Shown here: positions 2,065 through 18,509 of the stretch, in pieces
Position numbering within the stretch: the first letter of the stretch is position 1
Layout: every line of letters begins with the position of its first letter
Origin: Rhodobacterales bacterium HKCCA1288
Lineage (GTDB): Bacteria > Pseudomonadota > Alphaproteobacteria > Rhodobacterales > Rhodobacteraceae
Direction: 5' to 3'
Length of the DNA: 64,000 nt
Assembly: GCA_015693905.1 (NCBI GenBank)
Contig: CP065161.1
Coordinates: 930,001-994,000, forward strand
Program-made: the position numbers and the translations under genes
Notes under the pieces: model-generated
Told to the model about the DNA's origin: nothing
Databases searched by the model: none
What the model saw: the letters and a program-made list of their open reading frames with translations, nothing else

Positions 2065-3303
2065 TTAATTTTCAGCACGCGCAGCACCGAGCGCGTGTTT
2101 CAAATCCCTTAACAGGTCGTTAACGTCCTCAAGCCCCACCGACAGGCGCACGAGACCAGATGTGATGCCCAGATGTTGCTTTTGATCCTCAGGCAAACGC
2201 TGGTGGGTCGTTGTGGCAGGATGGGTGATAATAGATTTTGCATCGCCCAAATTATTTGAGATTGTAATGATCTCTAACGCGTTGAGGAACCGAAACGCCG
2301 CATCGCGCCCGCCCTCCAGTTCAATCGCGATCACTGTGCCGCCTTTTTGCATTTGCGTGCGGGCAAGCATGGCTTGCGGGTGGCTGTCGAGATGAGGATA
2401 GAGCACCCGCGCCACACCCGCCTCCCCCTCTAGCCCTTGCGCAATGGCAAGAGCAGTGTCGGCTTGGGCGTTAACCCGCAGGTGGAGTGTTTCCAACCCC
2501 TTGAGCATAACCCATGCGTTAAACGGCGACATCGCCGCGCCTGTATGTTTCAGATAGGGTTCCACGGTCTTGCGAATGAACTCGCGGGTGCCACAAATCA
2601 CCCCGCCCAAACACCGCCCCTGCCCGTCAATATGCTTGGTCGTGGAATAGATCACGACATCAACGCCCAGTTTGCGGTTGTCTTGGAACAAGGGAGAGGC
2701 AAACACGTTATCGACCACCACCAAAGCGCCTGCATCATGGGCCAGACGCGCAACGGCGGCGATATCGACAACCTGCAACGTGGGGTTCGAAACACTTTCG
2801 AAGAATACAGCGCGGGTTTTGCCCTTGATGATTGCGGCTTCCCATTGGGTCAGGTCATCGCCATCCACAAACGTGACCTCAACCCCGTAACGGGTCAAAA
2901 TCTCCTCAAGAATGTAGAGACAAGACCCGAACAAGGCGCGCGCAGACACCACATGATCCCCCGCGCGCAACATGGACATCAGCGCGCCATTCACCGCCGC
3001 CATTCCAGAGGCGGTTGCAAAAGCATCTTCTGTGCCCTCAATCGCCGCGATCCGATCCTCGAACATTGCGACAGTCGGGTTGCCATAGCGGGCATAGATA
3101 AATTCCTCACGCCCCGCTTCGATAAAGCGGGCCTCGGCCGCCTCGGCGCTGTCATAGACAAAACCTTGGGTCATAAAGATTGCCTCAGACACTTCGCCAT
3201 ATTGGCTGCGGCGGGTGCCTGAATGCACTGCGCGTGTCTGCGCGGAAACAGTATCGGGCAAGGATTTCAAACCTACGGATTTCTTGGCGCCTGTGTCTGA
3301 CAT
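2065..3303 (-). CDS. metZ: O-succinylhomoserine sulfhydrylase MetZ
   Basis: A PLP enzyme of the Cys/Met-metabolism family that makes homocysteine by direct sulfhydrylation of an activated homoserine. The 412-residue protein from the ATG at 3303 follows an AAGGGA ribosome site. PLP-family hallmarks are present: YARYGNPT near the N-terminus, ATASGMAAV, the FESVSNPT loop, DNVFASP, and the Schiff-base lysine in STTKHIDGQG around residue 223. SAM-II control upstream fits a methionine-pathway gene. MetZ and O-acetylhomoserine enzymes are hard to separate by eye. The sequence looks like the MetZ branch and is clearly different from metY at 34823. Confidence in the family is very high, in the exact acyl donor moderate. 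Confidence 0.92.
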   Translation of the reverse strand: MSDTGAKKSVGLKSLPDTVSAQTRAVHSGTRRSQYGEVSEAIFMTQGFVYDSAEAAEARFIEAGREEFIYARYGNPTVAMFEDRIAAIEGTEDAFATASGMAAVNGALMSMLRAGDHVVSARALFGSCLYILEEILTRYGVEVTFVDGDDLTQWEAAIIKGKTRAVFFESVSNPTLQVVDIAAVARLAHDAGALVVVDNVFASPLFQDNRKLGVDVVIYSTTKHIDGQGRCLGGVICGTREFIRKTVEPYLKHTGAAMSPFNAWVMLKGLETLHLRVNAQADTALAIAQGLEGEAGVARVLYPHLDSHPQAMLARTQMQKGGTVIAIELEGGRDAAFRFLNALEIITISNNLGDAKSIITHPATTTHQRLPEDQKQHLGITSGLVRLSVGLEDVNDLLRDLKHALGAARAEN

Positions 3304-3356
3304 TTCATATCCCTTCCATCTGAACGGTCGGGCATCATGCGGCAAGCAGGCCTCGA

Positions 3357-3411
3357 CCTCTTTAGCGGCATTTTTTTTGTGGCCCGCAATCCGGTAAACA
3401 AATCGCCACGC
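3357..3411 (-). promoter_or_regulatory. SAM-II riboswitch upstream of metZ
   Basis: Read on the minus strand, the segment has the SAM-II layout. The P1 arm GTGGC (3409-3405) is followed at once by GATTTG (3404-3399) and then CCGGATTGC. The closing P1 arm GCCAC (3383-3379) comes next, then an A-rich stretch and the conserved GCTAAAGAGG (ending 3357), which forms the pseudoknot. It lies about 53 nt before the metZ start codon. SAM-II aptamers in alphaproteobacteria turn off methionine-pathway genes when S-adenosylmethionine is plentiful, usually at translation. The match was recognised by eye from conserved blocks, without a covariance search. Confidence 0.85.
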
Positions 3412-3417
3412 GACAGG

Positions 3418-3446
3418 GCATTACGCCTTGACCCTGATCGGGTCAA
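3418..3446 (-). promoter_or_regulatory. Probable promoter of metZ and its riboswitch
   Basis: On the minus strand TTGACC (3446-3441) is followed after 17 bp by a weak TAATGC (3423-3418). This would place the transcript start a few bases before the riboswitch, the usual position. The -35 lies inside a 9-bp perfect inverted repeat (3426-3434 with 3440-3448, loop TGATC), which could also be a repressor site. Confidence 0.4.
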
Positions 3447-3668
3447 GGGGCCGCAAGCCAAAGCACCGCGCCAAGCGGCGGGATTGCAACCCCGACAAAG
3501 ACACCCCACATCTTTGCCAGTCACACCACCGCAAAGCAGCCGCAGGGCGCAATATATGTATGAATTTTATGTTCTTTAGGTTGACACATTGGGCTGCTAA
3601 AGGTGAAACCTAAAACAGGGGTAAGGGAATGACCAATCCCATCTGTGGTATTGTAAAAGGATTTGGCC
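3447..3668 (+). other. Intergenic region between divergent metZ and the small-peptide/XpaC operon
   Basis: I see no credible protein gene here. Its left part carries the far arm of the 3426-3448 inverted repeat. The right part is AT-rich (around 3550-3580) and leads into a TTGACA element at 3581. The AAAGGA ribosome site for the small ORF at 3669 closes the region. Short open frames in it have no ribosome site or family resemblance. Confidence 0.6.
3581..3609 (+). promoter_or_regulatory. Probable promoter of the XpaC-TelA-SPFH operon
   Basis: A perfect TTGACA (3581-3586) follows an AT-rich tract that could be an UP element. A 17-bp spacer leads to a poor -10, TGAAAC (3604-3609). The expected leader to the first start codon at 3669 would be about 50 nt. 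The weak -10 hints at an activated or alternative-sigma promoter. Confidence 0.4.
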
Positions 3669-3758
3669 ATGTCGGCTAAACCCATCGGGGCAATTACATT
3701 TGCGATCTTGGTGATCGTCATCCTAACGGCCGCTTTTGGCGGCTTTGGGGAATTCTAG
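3669..3758 (+). CDS. 29-residue hydrophobic membrane peptide
   Basis: ATG at 3669 follows AAAAGGA with 7-nt spacing, and the frame ends at TAG 3756-3758, two bases before the next start codon at 3761. The peptide begins MSAKPIGAITFAIL and is almost wholly hydrophobic after residue 5, predicting one membrane-spanning helix with a short GGFGEF tail. The good ribosome site and tight coupling to the XpaC-like gene argue that it is translated. I do not recognise a family. It could be a small subunit of the membrane complex encoded downstream, or a leader peptide whose translation sets expression of the operon. Confidence 0.55.
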   Translation: MSAKPIGAITFAILVIVILTAAFGGFGEF

Positions 3759-3760
3759 AC

Positions 3761-4633
3761 ATGGCCACACGCTACACCGCTCAATTCAGCCCCAATGCCT
3801 CCTCTGGCACACGAGACGCCACCCTCCCCTTCAAGGGCCGCCGTCCCATGCGATTTGGGGCGCGCCTGAATATTTACGCGGCCTTGCCTGTCATCGCGGC
3901 CTTTCCCAGTTTCTTCCAGCCCGTCTCAACGATGTTGGTTGATATGGCAGGCGCGGCCCTGCTCGGCTTTGCTGCATGGTTGACGCGGGAGGGGATCAAG
4001 GCAGAAGACGCGTATTCCGTGCGCATTGTGGCGCGCCGCCCCATGATCCCGCGCAAAATTATGGCTGCCCTCATTTGCGGTCTGGCGGTGGGTCTGTTGG
4101 TTTGGGGCGGGACATGGGCCATCTTGAACGCTACTGCAATTGCGGTTTTTGCAGGGGTTTTGCACCTTGCGGCTTTCGGCATTGATCCGCTGCAGGATAA
4201 GGGCATTTCGGATATAGACAGCACCGCTGAGCGCCGCCTCGCCGATAAAATCGAAGCGGCCGAGGCCCTATTGCAGGAGATGCGCGATGCGGTCACCCAG
4301 ACGGGGCAGCGCGATCTAGAGGCGCGGGTTATCGCCTTCCAACAGACAGCGCAGGCGATGTTCCGCCAAATCGAAAGCGACCCGCGTGATCTGAATGCCG
4401 CGCGGCGCTTTTTGGGGGTTTACCTTGAAGGCGCGCGCGATGCCGCGGTTAAGTTCCAAAGCCTATATGCGGCACGTCCTGATGCGGCGCTTAAAACCCG
4501 CTTTGAGGGGCTTTTGAACGATCTTGAGCGCGACTTTGCCGCGCGCACCACCAAACTGGCCCAAAACGACACGGAAGACTTGGATCTAGATATCGAGCTT
4601 TTGCGCGAAAGATTGGCGCGCGAGGCTGTTTAA
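3761..4633 (+). CDS. XpaC-like (5-bromo-4-chloroindolyl phosphate hydrolysis family) membrane protein
   Basis: A 290-residue protein with two pairs of hydrophobic segments in its first half (about residues 37-75 and 105-140). A cytoplasmic helical, coiled-coil-like second half ends in the acidic, leucine-rich DLDIELLRERL typical of XpaC/YceC-type proteins. The family name comes from a Bacillus phenotype and does not establish an enzyme activity. XpaC genes usually sit next to telA, as here (TelA starts 39 bp downstream). Together they belong to the membrane-linked stress modules described around Ter and TelA proteins. I infer a membrane anchor or scaffold for TelA. The identification rests on overall layout and neighbourhood, so the family call is good and the function unknown. 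Confidence 0.8.
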   Translation: MATRYTAQFSPNASSGTRDATLPFKGRRPMRFGARLNIYAALPVIAAFPSFFQPVSTMLVDMAGAALLGFAAWLTREGIKAEDAYSVRIVARRPMIPRKIMAALICGLAVGLLVWGGTWAILNATAIAVFAGVLHLAAFGIDPLQDKGISDIDSTAERRLADKIEAAEALLQEMRDAVTQTGQRDLEARVIAFQQTAQAMFRQIESDPRDLNAARRFLGVYLEGARDAAVKFQSLYAARPDAALKTRFEGLLNDLERDFAARTTKLAQNDTEDLDLDIELLRERLAREAV

Positions 4634-4672
4634 AACCACCCCTCGGTGCAGGGGTTTACATTGGGGGATAGA

Positions 4673-5836
4673 ATGACCGACACAAAAACTGCCGCGCGTG
4701 ACGCAAGTAAATTGGTCGATGAAATTAACGCCGTGGTCTTGACTGACCCAAGCGACCTGCTGCCAGACCCGAAGGCCGCAGACAAACCGACCGCCGAGGC
4801 CATCGCCAAAGCAATTGCAGAAATTGATATGCATGACACAAATTCAATCGTGTCTTTCGGTTCCGCTGCGCAGGCAGAATTGCAGGTCATTTCACAGGCA
4901 ATGCTCGATGGCGTCCGCAACAAGGATGTCGGCCCCGCAGGTGCCTCGTTGCGCGATATTGTTGGCACGATCCGCGGCTTTTCCGTGGAGGAGCTTGACC
5001 CCACCCGCAAAATCAGTTGGTGGGATCGCCTGCTTGGCCGCGCCAAGCCCGTGCATGATTTCCTTGCGCGTTACGAAACCGTGCAAGGGCAAATCGACAA
5101 GATCACGGATGATCTGTTGCGGCATGAACATCAGCTCATGCGTGACATTAAGTCATTAGATCAACTTTATGAAAAGACGTTACAATTTTATGATGCACTT
5201 GCCATTTATATTGCCGCAGGCGAGGCCAAATTGGCTGCGTTGGACAATAATGACATCCCTGCAAAGGAGGCGGAGGTGGCCGCCGCACCCGAAGCCGATC
5301 AAGTGATCCGCGCGCAAGAATTGCGCGACCTGCGCGCTGCTCGCGATGATCTTGAGCGGCGTGTGCATGACCTTAAGCTGACACGCCAAGTCACCATGCA
5401 ATCTCTGCCCTCTATCCGCTTGGTGCAAGAGAATGACAAATCCTTGGTCACCAAGATCAACTCAACCTTGGTCAATACCGTGCCGCTGTGGGAAACCCAA
5501 TTGGCACAGGCCGTGACCATCCAACGCTCGACCGAAGCGGCCGAAGCGGTGCGCGCAGCCAAAGATCTGACCAATGAACTATTGGAAAAGAATGCCTCGA
5601 ATTTGCGCACATCCAATCGTATGATCCGCGAAGAAATGGAGCGTGGCGTTTTTGATATTGAGGCGGTGAAACGTGCCAATGCAGAATTGGTTGCAACCAT
5701 CGAAGATAGCCTTGCGATTGCAGATGAGGGGCGGATGCGCCGCGCCAAAGCAGAAGAAGACATGATCAAAATGGAGGCGGAATTGCGCGATACTCTGGCC
5801 GCCGCCAAGGCAAAATCCACAAGCACCGCGTCCTAA
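4673..5836 (+). CDS. telA: TelA family protein (toxic anion resistance)
   Basis: A 387-residue, largely helical cytoplasmic protein of the TelA/KlaA family, named for tellurite resistance on plasmids but widespread in chromosomal stress modules. Family features are the WWDRLLG segment around residue 116, long coiled-coil helices with QIDKITDDLLRHEHQLMRDI, and the SLPSIRLVQENDKSL and LVNTVPLWETQLAQAV blocks. The ATG at 4673 lies after a GGGGGATAGA ribosome site; the frame extends nine codons upstream without family similarity. It follows the XpaC-like gene and precedes a DUF2927 lipoprotein. The family assignment is firm, but whether it really protects against tellurite here is not shown. Confidence 0.92.
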   Translation: MTDTKTAARDASKLVDEINAVVLTDPSDLLPDPKAADKPTAEAIAKAIAEIDMHDTNSIVSFGSAAQAELQVISQAMLDGVRNKDVGPAGASLRDIVGTIRGFSVEELDPTRKISWWDRLLGRAKPVHDFLARYETVQGQIDKITDDLLRHEHQLMRDIKSLDQLYEKTLQFYDALAIYIAAGEAKLAALDNNDIPAKEAEVAAAPEADQVIRAQELRDLRAARDDLERRVHDLKLTRQVTMQSLPSIRLVQENDKSLVTKINSTLVNTVPLWETQLAQAVTIQRSTEAAEAVRAAKDLTNELLEKNASNLRTSNRMIREEMERGVFDIEAVKRANAELVATIEDSLAIADEGRMRRAKAEEDMIKMEAELRDTLAAAKAKSTSTAS

Positions 5837-5859
5837 GCGCGGAGAGATAAGGCGTCATT

Positions 5860-6825
5860 GTGCGGATTATGAGTAAAGTGAGGGGTTCGGGGCGGAAGGC
5901 TAGGCGCGGTCTATGGGTTGGGGCGGCGCTTGGCCTTTTGGCGGGGTGTCAGGCCCTCGGGCCTGGTGCCATGGGCCAGAACGGGGTGGCAAGCAGCATA
6001 GCTGCCACCACCCCTTCGGCTGAGAGCGCGCTTTACGCGCAATATTACGCCCAAACCGAGGCGCGGCTTCTGCGTGAGGGGTTATTGCGCCAATCCACCA
6101 CCCCCTCGGATGCCCCCGTCTCGCGCCGTGCTTTGGCGCGCAATTTCGAGGCCATTGCGCTTTATGATGAATATGCTCTGGAAAACGGGCGCTTTGTCGC
6201 CCGTCAAACCCCCTCGCGGCTAAGACGTTGGATTGATCCTGTCCGTATCGAAGCCCATTTTGGGCCAGCAACCGCCCCACAGAAAATGGCACGGGATCGC
6301 CAGATTCTGACCAATTACACCCGACAACTCAGCCGCGCCGCGCGGCATCCGATTGATTTGGTTGGATCGGGTGGAAATTTCCATGTGCTGTTCATCAGCC
6401 GCGATGAGCAAGCAGAAATCGGCCCCTATCTGCGCAGCATCGCGCCCAATATTGATGCCTCAATCATCCGCGAAATTGAGAACCTGCCGCGCTATACGTT
6501 CTGCTCTGTCTATGCTTTTGCGCGTTCAAATGCGCAGCCAGAATATCGCAGCGCCATTGCCGTAATCCGCACCGAGCATCCCGATTTGATGCGCACCTCC
6601 TGCATCCATGAGGAAATCGCCCAAGGGTTGGGATTGCCCAATGACAGCCCAACGGCGCGTCCCTCGATTTTTAATGATGATGAAGAATTTGCACTTTTGA
6701 CCGCGCATGACGAATTGCTTTTGCGCGTGCTGTATGACCCGCGCCTAGACATTGGCATGACCCCTGATGAAGCGCGCCCGATTGTCGAAGCGATTGCCGC
6801 AGAATTGATTGACGCGTCTAGCTAA
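5860..6825 (+). CDS. DUF2927 family lipoprotein
   Basis: A 321-residue exported lipoprotein. An arginine/lysine-rich start and hydrophobic stretch lead to the lipobox LLAGC, with the acylated cysteine at about residue 30. The C-terminal half is a DUF2927 domain with C-I-H-E-E-I-A-Q-G-L-G around residues 249-259 and the following FNDDEEFALL block. The HEExxQ pattern resembles a zinc-peptidase HExxH with the second histidine changed, so activity is uncertain. I chose the GTG at 5860 because AAGG lies 7 nt before it; an ATG at 5869 is possible. It is the envelope member of the TelA/SPFH operon. A second DUF2927 lipoprotein lies at 17106. Confidence 0.85.
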   Translation: MRIMSKVRGSGRKARRGLWVGAALGLLAGCQALGPGAMGQNGVASSIAATTPSAESALYAQYYAQTEARLLREGLLRQSTTPSDAPVSRRALARNFEAIALYDEYALENGRFVARQTPSRLRRWIDPVRIEAHFGPATAPQKMARDRQILTNYTRQLSRAARHPIDLVGSGGNFHVLFISRDEQAEIGPYLRSIAPNIDASIIREIENLPRYTFCSVYAFARSNAQPEYRSAIAVIRTEHPDLMRTSCIHEEIAQGLGLPNDSPTARPSIFNDDEEFALLTAHDELLLRVLYDPRLDIGMTPDEARPIVEAIAAELIDASS

Positions 6826-6837
6826 GGAAGGCTGCTC

Positions 6838-7953
6838 ATGCCCATTTTCGATTTCCTCTCAGGTCAATTCATTGATGTCATTGAATGGACGGACGACACC
6901 CGTGACACATTGGTTTATCGCTTTGAGCGCGAAGGGCATGAAATCAAATACGGGGCCAAGCTGACTGTGCGCGAAGGCCAAGTTGCGGTGTTCATCCATG
7001 AAGGCCAGTTGGCGGACGTCTTTACGCCCGGTCTCTACATGCTTGAAACCAACAATATGCCGATTATGACCAGCCTTCAGCATTGGGATCATGGGTTCAA
7101 ATCGCCTTTCAAATCCGAAATTTATTTCGTCTCGACACAGCGGTTCACCGATTTGAAATGGGGCACGAAAAACCCTGTGATGCTACGTGATCCCGAATTT
7201 GGGCCAATCCGCCTGCGTGCCTTTGGCACCTACACTATTCGCGTCAGCGATGCGGCACGGTTCATGACCGAAATCGTGGGAACAGATGGCGAGTTCACCA
7301 CGGATGAGATCAGCTTCCAAATCCGCAACATCATCGTGCAGCAATTCAGCCAAACTGTAGCCAATAGCGCCATTCCCGTTTTGGACATGGCCGCGAATAC
7401 GGCAGAATTCGCCAAGCTGATCGCCGCGCGGATTTCTGACACCATAACCCAATATGGCCTGAGCCTACCCGAGCTTTATATCGAGAATATATCGCTGCCC
7501 GAGGCGGTTGAAGCCGCACTTGATAAGCGGTCTTCGATGGGCATCTTGGGCGATATGAAGACCTATACCCAATTTGCCGCCGCGGAGGCCATGCAGGCGG
7601 CAGCACAAAACCCTCAGGGGGATGGCGGCATGGGCGCGGGTCTGGGTATGGGCTTGGGTATGGGGGCCGCACAGGCCGCGTTTCAAGCAGGGCCTTGGGG
7701 TGCAGCCCCTGTTGCACCTGCCGCACCACCCCCGCCACCAGTCGAACATGTGTGGCACATTGCCGAGAACGGCGCGACCAAAGGGCCATTTTCCAAGGCC
7801 AGCCTTGGCCGCATGGCGGCCGATGGCACCTTGACCCGCGACACGCTTGTATGGACGGCGGGGCAAGACGGGTGGATGCGCGCCGAGGATGTGCGCGAAT
7901 TGGCGCAGCTCTTCACCATCCTACCACCGCCACCGCCGCCACCCGCGCCCTAA
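6838..7953 (+). CDS. SPFH-domain protein with C-terminal GYF_2 (DUF4339) domain, YdjI-like
   Basis: A 371-residue protein. Residues about 1-260 form the SPFH/band-7-type region of the YdjI/'virion core protein' group (MPIFDFLSGQFIDVIEW start, VREGQVAVFIHEG, FTPGLYML, ENISLPEAVEAALD). A methionine/glycine/alanine-rich linker follows. Residues about 303-352 then form a GYF_2 domain (W-H-I-A-E-N-G...GPFS...W.AGQDGWM). Short polyproline runs flank the GYF_2 domain on both sides, and the last residues are a polyproline tail. SPFH proteins assemble into membrane-bound rings or scaffolds. Bacillus YdjI brings PspA to membranes, but no pspA is seen in this window. The start is 13 nt after the lipoprotein stop, with AAGGAAGG just upstream. 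Confidence 0.87.
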   Translation: MPIFDFLSGQFIDVIEWTDDTRDTLVYRFEREGHEIKYGAKLTVREGQVAVFIHEGQLADVFTPGLYMLETNNMPIMTSLQHWDHGFKSPFKSEIYFVSTQRFTDLKWGTKNPVMLRDPEFGPIRLRAFGTYTIRVSDAARFMTEIVGTDGEFTTDEISFQIRNIIVQQFSQTVANSAIPVLDMAANTAEFAKLIAARISDTITQYGLSLPELYIENISLPEAVEAALDKRSSMGILGDMKTYTQFAAAEAMQAAAQNPQGDGGMGAGLGMGLGMGAAQAAFQAGPWGAAPVAPAAPPPPPVEHVWHIAENGATKGPFSKASLGRMAADGTLTRDTLVWTAGQDGWMRAEDVRELAQLFTILPPPPPPPAP

Positions 7954-7959
7954 GTCGTG

Positions 7960-9066
7960 ATGCCAAAGGCAAAGACAGACCAACCCCATCGCCGCTTTCC
8001 CTGCACCGCCTGCGGGGGCGATATGCGTTGGACCCCTCAAGCAGGCGCGATGGTCTGCGCGCATTGCGGCGCGCAAAGCAGCGTGGAGATGCCCGCTCAA
8101 GGCCCTTGGGATGTCACGGCAATCCGCGAACAGGATTATCGCACCGCTTTACGCGCATCACGCGAGACAGCGCAGGAGGTTGAAACCCGCGTCTCAACCT
8201 GCCCAAATTGCGCTGCCCGTGTTGAAGTGTCAGACACAGATCACGCGCTAGAATGCCCGTTTTGCGCCACGCCTGTTGTGGTTGGATCTGGCGCCCACAG
8301 ACAGATCAAACCACAAGCCGTGCTTCCCTTTACCTTGACCGAGCGCGAAGCGCATCGCGCGATGGAACATTGGCTTAAGGGGCTGTGGTTCGCCCCCAAT
8401 GGCCTGAAGAAATACGCCAGCGCCTCGCGGCAGATGGAGGGGATATACACCCCCTATTGGACATATGACGCCAAAACCGCCAGCCAATATCGCGGGCAGC
8501 GCGGCACCGATCACACCACCAGCGTCTCGGATGGCAAGGGGGGCCGGCGCAGCAGCACCACAACAACTTGGCGCCGCGTCACGGGGCAGGTGCGATTGGC
8601 GTTTGACGATCTCTTGGTCTTAGCTTCAGAAAGCCTGCCCAAGCGATTTACCGACACGCTCGCACCGTGGGATTTGACCGCCCTTGCCCCCTATCAGCCA
8701 GAATTCCTGTCAGGTTTTCGGGCCGAAGCCTATAGCATCGACCTAGAGACGGGGATGGAGGAGGCCCGGGCGCGGATGGATCAAGCAATCCGTGCCGCAA
8801 TCCGCCGCGATATTGGCGGCGATCATCAGCGCATTGACCATGTCGACACGGAAATTTGGGATGTGACCTTCAAGCATATCCTGTTGCCTGTCTGGGTATC
8901 GGCCTATCGCTATGGCGGAAAGTCCTATCGCTTTGTTGTCAATGGGCAGACGGGCAAAGTAATGGGAGAGCGACCCTATTCCGCGATCAAAATCGCTATC
9001 GCGCTGATCCTGGCGGCTCTGTTGGCGCTTGGCCTTGGTTATGTCTATGACGGATACATCCGTTAA
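7960..9066 (+). CDS. Double zinc-ribbon, C-terminally anchored membrane protein (YdjG-like)
   Basis: A 368-residue protein with two zinc ribbons, C-x2-C...C-x2-C at about residues 15-40 and again at about 70-95. A globular middle follows, and a single membrane helix near the C-terminus (IALILAALLALGLGYVY) leaves only a few residues outside. Proteins like this are often mislabelled as primosomal protein N'/helicase, but there is no helicase motif. Bacillus YdjG has the same zinc-ribbon plus membrane-anchor layout and also pairs with the SPFH protein YdjI. I infer a partner of the preceding SPFH protein. The start is either GTG 7957 or ATG 7960, 3-6 nt after the upstream stop, so translation is probably coupled. 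Confidence 0.8.
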   Translation: MPKAKTDQPHRRFPCTACGGDMRWTPQAGAMVCAHCGAQSSVEMPAQGPWDVTAIREQDYRTALRASRETAQEVETRVSTCPNCAARVEVSDTDHALECPFCATPVVVGSGAHRQIKPQAVLPFTLTEREAHRAMEHWLKGLWFAPNGLKKYASASRQMEGIYTPYWTYDAKTASQYRGQRGTDHTTSVSDGKGGRRSSTTTTWRRVTGQVRLAFDDLLVLASESLPKRFTDTLAPWDLTALAPYQPEFLSGFRAEAYSIDLETGMEEARARMDQAIRAAIRRDIGGDHQRIDHVDTEIWDVTFKHILLPVWVSAYRYGGKSYRFVVNGQTGKVMGERPYSAIKIAIALILAALLALGLGYVYDGYIR

Positions 9067-10659: not shown

Positions 10660-12087
10660 ATGGAAAACCCCACCCCCTTTTTTGATGAAATGCTCGGCCC
10701 TGATAACGGGGCGCGCCCGCCTTACGAGGCCTATCATAGATGGTTCGAGGGCGAAGATCGCCGCGACCTAATCCGCAAATCGGGCGAGGCTGAGCGGTTC
10801 TTTCGCCGCACGGGCATCACCTTCAACGTTTATGGTGCCGCTGATGCAGATGAACGTCTGATCCCGTTTGACATCGTGCCGCGTATTATCTCTGGCCGAG
10901 AATGGGCCCGTCTGACGCGCGGCATCGAACAGCGCGTTCGCGCCATCAACGCCTTTTTGCACGATATTTATCATCGCCAGGAAATCATCCGCGCGGGCCG
11001 CATTCCGATTGAGCTGATTGCCAAAAACGATGCGTTCCTCAAGGCTATGATCGGGCTAGAACCACCGGGCGGCGTTTACACGCATATCGTGGGAATTGAT
11101 CTGGTGCGCGTGGCCGAGGATCAATTCTATGTGCTTGAGGACAATGCACGCACCCCATCGGGCGTGTCCTATATGCTCGAAAACCGCGAAACCATGCTCC
11201 AGATGTTCCCCGAACTGTTCGGGCGCATAAAGGTGCGCGGCGTTGGGGATTATCCACTTGCTTTGCGGCGCTCGCTTGGCGCTTCGATGCCGCGCCATGC
11301 CTCAGGCGATGGGGCTGTGGCCGTGCTGACACCGGGCATTCATAATTCCGCTTATTTTGAACATGCGTTTTTGGCCGACCATATGGGGGTCGAATTGGTC
11401 GAGGGCAGCGATTTGCGCGTTGTGGATGGTAAAATCGCCATGCGCACCACGCGCGGCTACAAACCGATTGATGTCCTTTATCGGCGTGTCGATGATGATT
11501 TCCTTGATCCGCTCAGCTTTAACCCTGACAGCTTGCTTGGTGTGCCAGGGATTATGGATGTCTATCGCGCAGGCGGCATCACTATTGCCAACGCGCCTGG
11601 AACAGGGATTGCCGATGATAAGGCGATCTATTCCTACATGCCCGAGATTGTCGAATTCTATACGGGCGAAAAGCCGCTTTTGGAAAATGTGCCGACTTGG
11701 CGGTGCTCTGAGGCGGACGCATTGGCCTATGTGCTAGACCATCTCGATGAATTGGTGGTCAAAGAGGTGCATGGGTCGGGCGGCTATGGAATGCTTGTTG
11801 GGCCTGCCGCCTCGAAAAAGGAATTGGCGGCGTTTCGGGCCAAGCTGAAATCACGGCCTGCGAATTACATCGCACAACCGACCTTGGCTCTTTCGACAGT
11901 GCCCATCCTGACCAAAGCGGGGCTTGCCCCTCGCCATGTCGATCTGCGCCCCTTCGTCTTGGTCAGCCCCAATGGCATCGAAATCACCCCCGGCGGACTG
12001 ACGCGCGTGGCGCTGAAGAAAGGCTCACTCGTGGTGAATTCCAGCCAAGGGGGCGGGACGAAAGACACATGGGTTCTGGAAGAATGA
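10660..12087 (+). CDS. Circularly permuted ATP-grasp type 2 protein (COG2308), Anbu operon
   Basis: A 475-residue protein of the DUF404/DUF407 circularly permuted ATP-grasp family. Such enzymes are predicted to form amide bonds using ATP. Recognisable blocks are the start with FFDEML and the YEAYHRWFEG segment, the VLEDNARTPSGVSYMLENR signature around residue 157, and a C-terminal half with KEVHGSGGYGM and RHVDLRPFV. It is the first gene of a four-gene operon with an alpha-E protein, a transglutaminase and the Anbu peptidase, the standard Anbu gene set. The product of this predicted ligase is not known. Confidence 0.93.
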   Translation: MENPTPFFDEMLGPDNGARPPYEAYHRWFEGEDRRDLIRKSGEAERFFRRTGITFNVYGAADADERLIPFDIVPRIISGREWARLTRGIEQRVRAINAFLHDIYHRQEIIRAGRIPIELIAKNDAFLKAMIGLEPPGGVYTHIVGIDLVRVAEDQFYVLEDNARTPSGVSYMLENRETMLQMFPELFGRIKVRGVGDYPLALRRSLGASMPRHASGDGAVAVLTPGIHNSAYFEHAFLADHMGVELVEGSDLRVVDGKIAMRTTRGYKPIDVLYRRVDDDFLDPLSFNPDSLLGVPGIMDVYRAGGITIANAPGTGIADDKAIYSYMPEIVEFYTGEKPLLENVPTWRCSEADALAYVLDHLDELVVKEVHGSGGYGMLVGPAASKKELAAFRAKLKSRPANYIAQPTLALSTVPILTKAGLAPRHVDLRPFVLVSPNGIEITPGGLTRVALKKGSLVVNSSQGGGTKDTWVLEE

Positions 12088-12109
12088 GCGCGCATAGGGG
12101 GCAAAGGCC

Positions 12110-13051
12110 ATGTTAGGCAAAACCGCGGGCGGATTGTTTTGGATGTTCCGCCATTTAGAGCGCGCCGAGAACACGACCCGTCTGATTGAGACGGGCCTGC
12201 GCATTGCGCTGACACGGCCAGATCGTTCCAATGACGAATGGCAAAGCCTGCTGAAAACAGCCGCCGCCGAGCAGTTGTTTTTCACCAAATACGAGACGGC
12301 TGATGCAGCCAATGTTGTGGATTTTCTATTGCGGGATGCGGCCAACCCGTCATCTGTGCAATCAAGCATGGCCCAAGCCCGCCAAAACGCCCGCATGGTG
12401 CGCACCGCCCTCACCCGCGAGGTCTGGGAAGCAGTCAATGACACCTATATGCAATTGCGCAGCACCCTTGCCCGCCCCGCCACAGATAAAAACCTACCCG
12501 ATACGATTGCCTTGGTGCGACAGCAATCCGCACTGGTGCGCGGCGCCTTGCACGGGTCGATGCTGCGCAATGATGTTTTCGATTTCGCGCGGCTTGGCAC
12601 ATTCCTAGAACGCGCCGATAACACCGCACGTATTTTGGATGTGAAATACTATGTCCTGCTGCCCTCTATCAGCCAGATCGGGTCAAACCTAGATAATGTG
12701 CAATGGGAAACGATCCTGCGCGCGGTGGCGGGTCAACGCGCCTATTCTTGGTTGACCCAAGGGGCGGTCACACCCAAAGGCATCGCAGACTTTCTCATCT
12801 TTGACGGGCGCATGCCCCGCAGCCTAAAATTCGCACTTGGTAAATTGCAAAGCAATCTGGGCTACCTTGAGGCGGAATATGGCAGCACCCTGCCCTGCCA
12901 CGCGATGGCAGCACGGCTCAATGCGCGGCTTTGCACAAGCAGCATCGACCAAGTCTTTGAGGAAGGATTGCATGAGTTCATCCTGACCTTTTTGCAGGAC
13001 TTAGCGGCGCTTGGCCGCCAGATCGAAACCGATTACCGTTTTATCGGATGA
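12110..13051 (+). CDS. Alpha-E domain protein (COG2307/DUF403), Anbu operon
   Basis: A 313-residue all-helical alpha-E protein. The FWMFRHLERAENTTRLIETG block near the start and the FARLGTFLERADNTARILDVKYY repeat-like block around residue 165 are family signatures. Glu and Arg residues in 'ERAENT/ERADNT' are conserved in both halves, pointing to an internal duplication. Alpha-E proteins always travel with the ATP-grasp gene that precedes this one by 22 bp, and in some genomes the two are fused. Function is unknown. A joint role in making or modifying a peptide is the published prediction for this gene set. Confidence 0.93.
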   Translation: MLGKTAGGLFWMFRHLERAENTTRLIETGLRIALTRPDRSNDEWQSLLKTAAAEQLFFTKYETADAANVVDFLLRDAANPSSVQSSMAQARQNARMVRTALTREVWEAVNDTYMQLRSTLARPATDKNLPDTIALVRQQSALVRGALHGSMLRNDVFDFARLGTFLERADNTARILDVKYYVLLPSISQIGSNLDNVQWETILRAVAGQRAYSWLTQGAVTPKGIADFLIFDGRMPRSLKFALGKLQSNLGYLEAEYGSTLPCHAMAARLNARLCTSSIDQVFEEGLHEFILTFLQDLAALGRQIETDYRFIG

Positions 13052-13058
13052 GGTGCTT

Positions 13059-13862
13059 ATGCGATTAAAACTGTCCCACCGCACAAGCTATGGTTTTGAC
13101 ACTGCGCCCTCTTACGGGCTTCAGCAATTGCGACTGACACCGCAAAACACGCCTGCGCAATCTGTGCAGGATTGGCAAATGCAGGTGACGGGTGGCACAG
13201 TGGAATGCAGCTATCTTGACCATAACCAAAACCTTGTAACGCTGATTTCTTTTGCCCCTGATGCACAGGCCGTTGAGGTCACTTGCACGGGCGAGATGGA
13301 AACAAACGAGGTTGCGGGCGTGCATGGGGCCCATCGTGGACTTGTCCCCCTATGGGTGTTTTTGCAGCCCTCCGATCTGACCCGTGCGGGCAATGGGACG
13401 CGCAAACTGACCGCGGGGCTTAGGGATGCCAAACTCAGCGATATTGAACGACTGCACACCCTGTCTGCCCGTATCCTAGAGGCTGTCCCCTATGCCATTG
13501 GCCCCACCCATGCAGGCAGCAGCGCCGAAGAAGCCATAGAGGCAGGCAGCGGTGTCTGTCAGGATCACGCCCATATTTTCATCTCAGCCGCCCGCCTTTT
13601 GGGATACCCTGCGCGCTATGTCTCAGGTTATTTGATGATGGAAGACCGCATCCACCAAGACGCAAGCCATGCTTGGGCAGAGGCCCATATTGAGGGGTTG
13701 GGATGGGTTGGTTTTGACGTCTCAAACGGCATTAGCCCAGATACGCGTTATGTGCGCGTGGCCTCGGGTGTAGATTACAGCGAAGCGGCCCCCATCATTG
13801 GCCTGCGCTACGGCGCGGGAGACGAGCGGCTTTCAGTAGATATTCAGGTTCAACAGCAATAA
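13059..13862 (+). CDS. Transglutaminase-like protein (COG1305), Anbu operon
   Basis: A 267-residue cytoplasmic transglutaminase/protease-fold protein. An N-terminal beta domain (RTSYGFDTAPSYGLQQLRLTP) is followed by the papain-like core. The core keeps a full catalytic set: Cys at about 167 in GSGVCQDHAH, His at about 204 in ASHAWAEAH, and Asp at about 220 in GFDVSNG. It could act as a thiol peptidase or amide-forming enzyme. The ATG at 13059 lies 7 bp after the alpha-E stop with GATGAGGTG upstream; the frame is open 16 codons further back but overlaps the alpha-E gene. Confidence 0.93.
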   Translation: MRLKLSHRTSYGFDTAPSYGLQQLRLTPQNTPAQSVQDWQMQVTGGTVECSYLDHNQNLVTLISFAPDAQAVEVTCTGEMETNEVAGVHGAHRGLVPLWVFLQPSDLTRAGNGTRKLTAGLRDAKLSDIERLHTLSARILEAVPYAIGPTHAGSSAEEAIEAGSGVCQDHAHIFISAARLLGYPARYVSGYLMMEDRIHQDASHAWAEAHIEGLGWVGFDVSNGISPDTRYVRVASGVDYSEAAPIIGLRYGAGDERLSVDIQVQQQ

Positions 13863-13922
13863 TAAAGACAAGGCGCGATTCTCGAGCTCGCGCAAAAATA
13901 CAGGTGAAAGACAGCCCCCGAT

Positions 13923-14666
13923 ATGACCTATTGCGTTGGTTTGAAACTGAATTCTGGCCTTGTGTTCATGTCAGACACGCGCACGAATGCGGGCGTGGAT
14001 AACATATCGACCTTCCGCAAAATGTTCACATGGGAAGGCCCGGGCGAGCGTAGCATCACCCTGATGACCGCGGGCAATTTGGCAACAACACAAGCGGTGA
14101 TCAGCCTCTTGAATGAACGCGCCAAACCCGCCGAAGATCGGGGGAACCCCTCGATCCTCGAAGCGCCTTCGATGTTTCAAGTCGCCAAATTGGTCGGGGA
14201 AACCTTGCGCGAGGTGATCAAAACACAATCAGGCCAAGATGGGCCTGAGGCAGAGGCAACCTTTTCCGCAACCATAATATTGGGCGGCCAGATCAAAGGC
14301 GCCCCCCCGCGCCTGTTCCTAATTTATCCTGAGGGCAATTTCATCGAGGCCAGCGATGACACGCCATTCTTTCAGATTGGCGAGACGAAATATGGCCGCC
14401 CCATTTTGGTGCGTGCCTTTGACCCCGAAATGAGTTTTGAGGATGCGGTCAAGCTTTTGATGGTGAGTTTTGACTCGACCATTAAGGCCAATCTTTCGGT
14501 CAACCTGCCGCTTGATCTTCATGTCTATACTGCAGACAGCTTGAAGCATGGAATAATGACAAGGATCGAAAAAGATGATCCGTATTTCAACGTAATTTCA
14601 ATGGGTTGGGGTGATGCGCTAAAGCATGCGTTTAACAGCCTCCCCCCCTATAGCTTTACGACTTAG
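13923..14666 (+). CDS. Anbu, bacterial proteasome-like peptidase
   Basis: A 247-residue Ntn-hydrolase-fold protein of the ancestral beta-subunit (Anbu, COG3484) family. Removal of Met1 exposes Thr2 (M-T-Y-C-V-G), the expected nucleophile. The family blocks GLVFMSDTRTNAG and ITLMTAGNLATTQAV follow. Anbu forms open helical or lock-washer rings instead of closed proteasome cylinders in the members studied. It ends the four-gene Anbu operon. A 60-bp gap before it carries a GCGCGA/TCGCGC hairpin (13873-13893) followed by AAAAA, which might tune expression relative to the upstream genes. Its 3' end overlaps the convergent monooxygenase gene by 11 bp. Confidence 0.94.
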   Translation: MTYCVGLKLNSGLVFMSDTRTNAGVDNISTFRKMFTWEGPGERSITLMTAGNLATTQAVISLLNERAKPAEDRGNPSILEAPSMFQVAKLVGETLREVIKTQSGQDGPEAEATFSATIILGGQIKGAPPRLFLIYPEGNFIEASDDTPFFQIGETKYGRPILVRAFDPEMSFEDAVKLLMVSFDSTIKANLSVNLPLDLHVYTADSLKHGIMTRIEKDDPYFNVISMGWGDALKHAFNSLPPYSFTT

Positions 14667-16669: not shown

Positions 16670-17116
16670 ATGCCCAGTTCAATCGATATTTTGCCCTTAC
16701 GCCCAGAGGATCGGAGCGCGTGGGAGGGGCTGTGGAAGGCCTATCTCGCATTCTACGAAACCACCCTCGCCGAGGCGGCGATTGACCTCAGCTTTACCCG
16801 CTACAGCACCCCTGCGCATAGTGATATGATGGCATGGTTGGCATGGCAGGATGGGCGCGCGACTGGTTTGGTTCATGTCATCTCTCACGCTCACGGGTGG
16901 AAGGCCGAACCCGTAACATATCTGCAAGATCTGTTTGTCGCTCCTGATGCACGCGGGCAGGGTATCGGGGCCGCTTTGATTGACCATGTCTGCGCCGATG
17001 CCGCAGCGGCAGGGCGGCCTTCGGTGTATTGGCTGACAGAAAGCCACAATGCGACCGCGCGGCGGCTTTATGATCGCGTGGCAACGGATACGGGCTTTGT
17101 GAAATATGCGAAATAA
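16670..17116 (+). CDS. GNAT family N-acetyltransferase
   Basis: A 148-residue acetyltransferase. The acetyl-CoA-binding motif A is seen at about residues 85-105 as YLQDLFVAPDARGQGIGAAL, with the R/Q-x-x-G-x-G/A pattern. A late motif, ESHNATARRLYDR, is typical of the fold. The substrate is unknown. The ATG is preceded by CGGAGTAAC. The gene overlaps the following DUF2927 lipoprotein gene by 11 bp, so the two are likely translated together, although acetylation of that exported protein is not implied. Confidence 0.9.
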   Translation: MPSSIDILPLRPEDRSAWEGLWKAYLAFYETTLAEAAIDLSFTRYSTPAHSDMMAWLAWQDGRATGLVHVISHAHGWKAEPVTYLQDLFVAPDARGQGIGAALIDHVCADAAAAGRPSVYWLTESHNATARRLYDRVATDTGFVKYAK

Positions 17117-18509
17117 ATTAAACCGCGCTTTTGGCCTTTTGGCGCTGCTCACGCTGTGCGCCTGCATGGCCGATATGCCGCGCGATGATGCGGCGGCGCG
17201 TCTTGCGCCCGCATTGGACACATCCTCATCTGATCTGCCAAGTTTTGGTGCGCCAAACCCAATCCGTTTCTCGCGCAGCAACCAATCCTTAGCTGAAGAT
17301 TTCATGGCCCTCAGTTTTGTTTTGGAATCGGGGCGGCAAATCCCACGGATCAGCCGTTTTGAAGGGCCGATTACTGTGGCCCTTGCGCCCTCCGCCCCAC
17401 CTGCATTGGAGGGGGAGCTGTCGCGCCTGCTGACCCGTCTGCGCACCGAAGCGGGGATTGCGATCAGCGCAACCGCCTATCGCACGAACAGCCCCGCAAA
17501 AATCACAATCGAGGCCCTGCCCGCCGAACGCATTGCGGCAGCCGTGCCTCAAGCGGCCTGTTTTGTCGTGCCCAATGCCAGCACATGGCAAGAATTCATC
17601 CGCCAACGAGGGCGCGTCACCTCCGATTGGGCGAGCCTCACCACCCGAAACCGCGCGGCTATTTTCCTGCCCGCCGATGCCAGCCTGCAAGAAATGCGTG
17701 ATTGCCTCCACGAAGAATTGGGGCAGGCTTTGGGGCCATTGAACGACCTATATGACCTGACCGACAGTGTCTTTAACGATGACAATTTTCATGCGGTGCT
17801 CACCACGACCGATATGATGTTTCTGCGGATCTTCAACGACCCGTCCTTGCAAAGCGGCATGGGTCAGGCCGATGTCGCAGCGCGCCTGCCCGCGATTTTG
17901 GGGCGGATCAACCCGACAGGCGGTGTTGTGTCTAGCATCAATCTGGCCAACCGCGACAATCGGGCATGGTCAAATGCCATTGGTCGCGCGCTTGGCCCGA
18001 ATATGCCCGAAGGACAGCGCCTTGAACACGCGCAAGCGGCGCTCAACATTGCGCAACGCTCAAACATGCGCGATGCGCGTTTGGGATTTAGCTATTATGC
18101 CTTGGGTCGGATTGCCTTGGCCCGCGACCCTGATCGTGCCGCAGCGGCCTTTGCATCAGCGCAAGATATATATCAACGCCTGCCCAACACCGATGTGCAG
18201 CGCGCCCATATCGCGATGCAAATCGGGGCCTTGGCCCTCGCGCGCGGGGATATGACCGCAGCACTTTTGCAAAGCACAACCGCCCTTCCGATTGCGCGGC
18301 GCAGTGAAAATGCCCATCTCTTGGCAAGCCTTTCAATGCTGCGCGCAACAGCACTCGAAGGATTGGGGCGCGGGTCTGAGGCGCAGAGATCACGGCTTGA
18401 AGCCTACGCATGGGGCCGCTATGGGTTTGCGGATCGCAGCCTGATGCAAATTCGTTTGGGCGAAATCGCAAATCTCGCTCCAAACGCAACTCAAGCCGCG
18501 CGCAATTAA
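17106..18509 (+). CDS. DUF2927 lipoprotein with TPR-like C-terminal region
   Basis: A 467-residue exported lipoprotein with a signal peptide and lipobox (LTLCAC, acylated Cys around residue 20). A DUF2927 region covers about residues 55-275, with the C-L-H-E-E-L-G-Q-A-L-G motif around 199-209 and VFNDDNFHAVL. A helical C-terminal third (about 300-455) looks like tetratricopeptide-type repeats. It is longer than the operon paralogue at 5860, which has no such tail. The HEExxQ motif resembles a zincin site lacking the second His. Its start lies inside the end of the GNAT gene. It is followed by a 57-aa membrane protein and an M48 protease on the same strand. The function is unknown; an envelope location is clear. 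Confidence 0.85.
   Translation: MRNKLNRAFGLLALLTLCACMADMPRDDAAARLAPALDTSSSDLPSFGAPNPIRFSRSNQSLAEDFMALSFVLESGRQIPRISRFEGPITVALAPSAPPALEGELSRLLTRLRTEAGIAISATAYRTNSPAKITIEALPAERIAAAVPQAACFVVPNASTWQEFIRQRGRVTSDWASLTTRNRAAIFLPADASLQEMRDCLHEELGQALGPLNDLYDLTDSVFNDDNFHAVLTTTDMMFLRIFNDPSLQSGMGQADVAARLPAILGRINPTGGVVSSINLANRDNRAWSNAIGRALGPNMPEGQRLEHAQAALNIAQRSNMRDARLGFSYYALGRIALARDPDRAAAAFASAQDIYQRLPNTDVQRAHIAMQIGALALARGDMTAALLQSTTALPIARRSENAHLLASLSMLRATALEGLGRGSEAQRSRLEAYAWGRYGFADRSLMQIRLGEIANLAPNATQAARN

Follow-up and report, generated by a model that had tools for sequence, protein, structure and literature searches.

Six closely spaced plus-strand genes at 3669-9066 of a 64,000-nucleotide stretch (the window) from the 2.66 Mb single-contig genome of Rhodobacterales bacterium HKCCA1288 encode a membrane micropeptide, XpaC, TelA, a DUF2927 lipoprotein, an SPFH protein with a GYF domain and a zinc-ribbon protein. 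We propose that they form a conserved alphaproteobacterial cell-envelope stress operon whose products would act together at the inner membrane, and give this reading a probability of about 0.48. Evidence for it includes a gene order kept across the Rhodobacteraceae, a family of mostly marine bacteria. An earlier note on this DNA had described the same six open reading frames (ORFs) and their close spacing in the window, and the Pfam matches, which for all five large proteins lie above the curated cut-offs, agree with it:

3669..3758, plus strand: membrane peptide gene, 29 codons, single helix (6-24 by hydropathy)
3761..4633, plus strand: XpaC membrane protein (Halogen_Hydrol, PF10112; E 1.3e-20)
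4646..5836, plus strand, likely start ATG 4673: TelA (PF05816; E 3.5e-108), a long helical cytoplasmic protein
5860..6825, plus strand: DUF2927 lipoprotein (E 5.1e-62), predicted metzincin fold, altered zinc motif
6838..7953, plus strand: SPFH protein (Band_7_1, E 8.3e-101) with a C-terminal GYF domain (GYF_2, E 9.6e-21) and a poly-proline tail
7957..9066, plus strand: double zinc-ribbon protein (Zn_ribbon_RRN7, E 9.8e-07) with a C-terminal membrane helix (residues 343-361)

With the starts as listed, the intergenic gaps are 2, 12, 23, 12 and 3 bases. The real start of TelA is more likely ATG 4673 than GTG 4646, because Met10 is invariant in the 43 sequences compared.

Conserved gene order and separable modules

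The 80 loci closest to the window's TelA (the named loci) were taken from a TelA scan. XpaC, TelA, DUF2927, SPFH and zinc ribbon stand in the same order and on the same strand in 67 of them; the other 13 lack one or more of the five genes in the fetched stretch, several at a contig end. The closest locus, from Rhodobacteraceae bacterium XHP0102, has a TelA 90% identical to that of the window over the best segment. In 149 genomes drawn evenly from the order, every one belonging to the window's family, XpaC was found in 146, DUF2927 in 148 and Band_7_1 in 146 (145 passing the cut-off). Of the 145 genomes that have both XpaC and SPFH, 136 have them no more than 6 kb apart. XpaC-DUF2927 and DUF2927-SPFH distances are both within 6 kb in 129 of the 137 genomes where all three places are listed; one best DUF2927 place per genome was used and weak places were left off, which leaves eight SPFH genomes with no listed DUF2927. 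This conserved order is not due to chance. The gene-neighbourhood survey thus bears out the expectation that these families co-occur in other genomes, and XpaC/TelA is joined to a YdjI/YdjG-like pair of SPFH and zinc-ribbon genes in a conserved unit with an exported lipoprotein. The tight spacing described for the window does not hold in general, since cytochrome b561-type genes stand between SPFH and zinc ribbon in some relatives (L045, 10357-10884; L035, 10310-11209; L040, 12297-12896; L numbers denote loci). A typical Rhodobacteraceae cluster also appears in a record titled Enemella evansiae, an actinobacterium (L078); the record is therefore probably mislabelled or contaminated.

In a class-level sample of 190 genomes, XpaC was found in 12, and Band_7_1 matched in 62, with 22 over the cut-off and nine at E < 1e-70, of which three belong to the window's family and six lie outside it. 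Four of the six, from four other alphaproteobacterial families (L111-L114), have contiguous XpaC, TelA, SPFH and zinc ribbon genes without DUF2927, which is an addition to this four-gene core. The lipoprotein that the earlier note had placed in the middle of the unit is therefore an exported member of the operon in the window, but not a core part, being missing in those four families and in some Rhodobacteraceae clusters. Smaller combinations occur as well: of the remaining two of the six, L115 has the SPFH-zinc ribbon pair only and L116 has SPFH alone. L117, L119 and L120 have TelA no more than about 2 kb from the XpaC place, and neither SPFH nor zinc ribbon matched; L118 gave no match. L127 is a cluster without DUF2927, L122 keeps XpaC-TelA-DUF2927 in a genome without SPFH and a stretch without zinc ribbon, and the displaced SPFH and zinc ribbon of L125 are still paired. 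On a Paracoccus plasmid, XpaC is far from TelA-DUF2927-SPFH-zinc ribbon. Plasmids of Vibrio, Comamonas, Tsukamurella and Enterococcus carry an SPFH gene next to a gene related to the zinc-ribbon gene; the annotations up to 6 kb away show no TelA, XpaC or PspA, so this pair looks older than the operon. The modules are thus peptide plus XpaC, TelA, DUF2927, and SPFH plus zinc ribbon.

These data allow another explanation, that peptide-XpaC-TelA, the lipoprotein and SPFH-zinc ribbon are separate co-regulated modules with jobs of their own, sharing a transcript only for the reason that envelope stress calls for each of them. It accounts for parts that move, duplicate and get lost independently and for the plasmid pairs just described, and in Bacillus the counterparts are distinct operons of one regulon (PMC3498285). 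But an order kept in most of the family, together with a four-gene core elsewhere, goes beyond what shared regulation usually needs, and we consider this explanation unlikely.

The micropeptide and control of the operon

The peptide was sought as an ORF of 20-110 amino acids with a membrane-like stretch and a stop no more than 12 bases from the gene start. Such an ORF ends at the XpaC start in 75 of the 79 named XpaC genes whose upstream sequence was long enough. The same rule gave none in 298 trials at the other cluster genes (TelA 77, DUF2927 78, SPFH 76, zinc ribbon 67) and 11 in 626 at other long ORFs of these loci. With a looser threshold, a peptide ORF precedes XpaC in 95 of 99 loci (all except L010, L040, L045 and L084); 66 of these 95 peptides are shorter than 40 amino acids, and a longer form, of about 67 amino acids and with a second hydrophobic stretch, occurs in some genomes. 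Differences by codon position are 0.265, 0.149 and 0.448. The mean nonsynonymous divergence (dN) is 0.112 and the mean synonymous divergence (dS) 0.789, a ratio of about 0.14, with dN below dS in all 98 related pairs, which are not independent of one another. By these measures, the 29-codon peptide is a genuine gene under purifying selection. It has no match in PHROGs (Pfam was not applied to it).

The last base of the peptide stop lies 0 to 6 positions ahead of the XpaC start, with an overlap in 37 cases; this abutting or overlapping arrangement suggests that the peptide and XpaC, itself a protein with two clear membrane helices by hydropathy, are translationally coupled. Relocated XpaC genes were still preceded by a peptide candidate in both cases checked (L123 and L129), and under a less strict rule 11 of the 13 additional tandem copies of XpaC have a membrane ORF of their own ahead of them. 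Tandem divergent copies of XpaC occur in L057, L066, L083, L090, L105 and others. No peptide candidate was found upstream of XpaC in L111-L114, outside the Rhodobacteraceae.

The earlier note had named separate promoters as what could split the genes into unrelated units. A promoter and terminator scan found nothing of the kind: there was one promoter-like site (8227) against 3.3 expected, and 10 terminator-like sites against 7.6 expected, a chance number, one of them on the plus strand. None of the predicted signals divides the operon. No sigma-70 promoter was detected by the scan upstream of the peptide, where an inverted repeat occurs:

3575-3582 and 3607-3614, strandless: inverted repeat TTTAGGTT...AACCTAAA, a possible operator

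Its exact 8-base arms are not kept in the two nearest relatives (L031, L032). In 41 of 99 loci (e.g., L012, L013, L064), the region ahead of XpaC holds the motif TTCCCCCTAG together with another block similar to CCTAAGTTT. The strict TTCCCCCTAG/CCTAAGTTT form occurs exactly once in three of eight genomes, each time about 0.5 kb upstream of the XpaC match, and was not found in the other five, the window's genome included; the motif could be a promoter or an operator. A second motif, TGGTTTTT, is present in 12 of 100 upstream regions. The window has neither motif.

Two neighbouring features were noted in the window. A SAM-alpha riboswitch (3341-3419, minus strand, 52.5 bits) lies directly upstream of a minus-strand gene (2065-3345) that by eye resembles a methionine-biosynthesis sulfhydrylase. 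Further on, at 10660-14666 on the plus strand, genes for a circularly permuted ATP-grasp protein, an Alpha-E protein, a transglutaminase and a proteasome-like protein stand in a row, resembling loci of the proteasome-like protein Anbu.

A predicted metzincin fold in the DUF2927 lipoprotein

A lipobox pattern is present in 71 of 77 DUF2927 orthologues, and Cys30 is invariant in 62 DUF2927 sequences. The AlphaFold2 model of the protein is of good quality by its scores (predicted local distance difference test, pLDDT, 87.7; predicted template modelling score, pTM, 0.83). Matrix metalloproteases (MMPs) top its Foldseek listing, with a best E of 1.1e-3 and none below 1e-3. The VIA alignment pairs residues ~98-295 with karilysin at Z 11.4 and a root-mean-square deviation of 3.0 over 152 residues, and every one of the 50 VIA entries listed is MMP-type with Z of at least 10.5; for models without a clear match, a best Z of 7 to 8 is typical. 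A search by sequence against solved structures gave nothing for DUF2927, and the profile matches to solved structures were rejected as unrelated chains at chance level (best E 0.036). The metzincin fold was recovered by structure comparison only.

At the place of the metzincin zinc motif, the operon protein has a different sequence:

6610..6645, plus strand: DUF2927 codons 251-262, EEIAQGLGLPND, at the place of the metzincin HExxHxxGxxH

It reads EExxQxxGxxND instead of HExxHxxGxxH/D, and E251, E252, Q255, G258 and D262 are invariant in the 62 sequences. The VIA alignment matches residue 295 to karilysin 199, so that residue 251 falls near karilysin 155, where the HExxH of karilysin begins, if the alignment is gap-free. 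A comparison within the family is the stronger test. The alignment for it took in 39 loci, comprising second copies, the operon copies L148 and L149, and members of other families; four fragments without the motif region were dropped, and 37 loci gave 39 motif rows. EExxQ is found in 30 rows (L135 and L171 are the same and counted twice), HExxH in six (L163 twice, L165, L167, L170, L175) and another sequence in three. The HExxH members are above Pfam's cut-off for DUF2927. Together with the fold, their presence among distant members indicates that most of the members compared have exchanged both histidines and kept the glutamate. DUF2927 is thus, as modelled, a metzincin-fold family, and most of these members, the operon's included, would have lost the HExxH histidines in this way. 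A second DUF2927 gene in the window (17106-18509, plus strand) encodes a lipoprotein-like product whose C-terminal part weakly matches TPR; its motif, HEELGQALGPLND, is EExxQ too. A literature search found no paper naming DUF2927; titles on metzincin pseudoproteases, or on XpaC with a small membrane protein or Rhodobacter, showed nothing on this operon.

The predicted fold is like that of MMP catalytic domains such as karilysin, whereas the operon lipoprotein has EExxQ for HExxH, so classical zinc catalysis is not expected. We infer that it binds or senses rather than cleaves. Alternatively, it could be an enzyme whose converted site uses a different metal or a different chemistry. The kept glutamate, the five invariant residues and EExxQ in 30 of 39 rows exceed what a plain binding fold would need, but the HExxH relatives show that both histidines were exchanged, and Glu and Gln are not known as zinc ligands in any metzincin; an active enzyme seems to us quite improbable.

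A possible stress assembly and the place of PspA

The SPFH protein has no membrane helix by hydropathy. In all 76 orthologues, a proline-rich linker and a poly-proline tail lie on either side of its GYF domain. Since domains of this type bind proline-rich sequences, docking from neighbour to neighbour in an SPFH assembly is a natural suggestion: each subunit could grip the proline-rich tails of those beside it through its GYF domain. In the adjacent zinc-ribbon protein, eight cysteines are fully conserved and a single helix lies at the C-terminus; the protein is homologous to the SPFH-adjacent zinc-ribbon protein of Enterococcus (E 3e-23). A Band_7_1 SPFH gene adjoining a zinc-ribbon gene with a membrane helix makes this, by gene arrangement and domain content, a pair of the YdjI/YdjG type.

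In B. subtilis, YdjI (SPFH) with YdjG/H brings PspA to the membrane (PMC8581546). The operon resembles pspA-ydjGHI in its Band_7_1 SPFH (PF13421 also matches in B. subtilis) and its membrane-anchored zinc-ribbon partner, but the genome here has no PspA, and TelA, XpaC, the peptide and DUF2927 are there instead; a TPM-domain gene like that for YdjH follows the SPFH-zinc ribbon pair on the Enterococcus plasmid but is not in the window's operon. It is also like xpaC-yaaN of B. subtilis and lmo1966-lmo1967 of Listeria in having XpaC followed by TelA (PF10112 and PF05816 adjacent), and differs from them by the added SPFH-zinc ribbon genes, lipoprotein and dedicated peptide. The sigma-W regulon lists pspA-ydjGHI, xpaC-yaaN and yceC-yceH (PMC3498285), and the operon physically unites genes that Bacillus holds in one regulon. 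TelA, XpaC and SPFH were together in no paper found by our literature search; the hits for TelA with XpaC, judged by title, mostly used the letters in other senses.

We infer a joint function of the six products that might proceed as follows. The SPFH-GYF protein would polymerise on the membrane, anchored by the zinc-ribbon protein as YdjI is by YdjG, with each GYF domain holding tails of neighbouring subunits. XpaC and its partner peptide would provide the membrane base and TelA would be the effector, in the place that PspA has in Bacillus. Outside, the DUF2927 lipoprotein would bind or sense a periplasmic protein or peptidoglycan, with no cutting, and damage to the envelope would set off assembly of the complex and a local stabilisation of the membrane. 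The boldest part is that TelA may stand in PspA's place. The full version, a repair system that spans the envelope, is independent of PspA and is found in nearly all Rhodobacteraceae, in which TelA replaces PspA on SPFH, a pseudo-metzincin lipoprotein gates from outside and XpaC with the micropeptide is the base, is a tentative and rather doubtful extension.

The earlier note had stated that no PspA is present, and this is correct for the genome: the PspA_IM30 profile gave no match in all 2.66 Mb, the control matching in 9 of 14. As a defining trait of the operon, "PspA-less" fails. A number of observations weigh against the proposed common assembly. PspA matches occur in 48 of the 149 relatives (47 over the cut-off); in 22 genomes PspA shares a contig with XpaC, the nearest pair being 22 kb apart, and PspA and the operon can thus coexist. 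The TelA model, all-helical with pLDDT 70.2 and pTM 0.52, matched assorted long-helix proteins among the 50 solved structures listed (best E 0.009), including pore-forming toxin subunits, BAR domains, and axonemal and designed bundles. No PspA/ESCRT-III chain was seen among these 50, none of which has E < 0.001 (at a model pLDDT of 70), a result that counts neither for nor against kinship of TelA with PspA; a phmmer search of solved structures with TelA gave no hit at E 1. XpaC lies far from TelA-DUF2927-SPFH-zinc ribbon in two genomes (G006 and G054; L123/L124 and L128/L129), DUF2927 is not in the four-gene core of other families and stands alone in L121, beside the downstream kinase gene, SPFH with zinc ribbon is also found without TelA, and no conserved promoter for the window's operon was found.

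A further reading, a tellurite or toxic-ion resistance operon possibly exporting charged molecules, takes up the name of the TelA family and its match to the PHROGs tellurite resistance family. In PMC12791056, the Listeria XpaC/TelA genes are modestly induced by a bacteriocin, the pair is called a cation efflux system with speculation on export, and TelA disruption is cited as raising tellurite sensitivity twofold. The same mutant is cited as hit harder by nisin, with a fourfold rise in sensitivity; moreover, by Pfam the unit has no transporter or metal enzyme, and near-universal chromosomal presence in the family fits housekeeping stress better. We regard this reading as very improbable. A phage origin or defence role was also tried and rejected: none of the six operon proteins matched PADLOC models of anti-phage defence at E 0.01, and PHROGs matches were limited to TelA and, weakly, the zinc-ribbon protein.

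Taken together, the proposed operon would unite XpaC/TelA and SPFH/zinc ribbon, two stress families of which little is understood, in a single testable machine. For the DUF2927 family, the analysis predicts a fold and points to a likely descent from a metzincin whose zinc site was converted; it also adds a conserved micropeptide gene that has no name in the family libraries used. The question of what performs the job of PspA where PspA is missing is thereby made testable.

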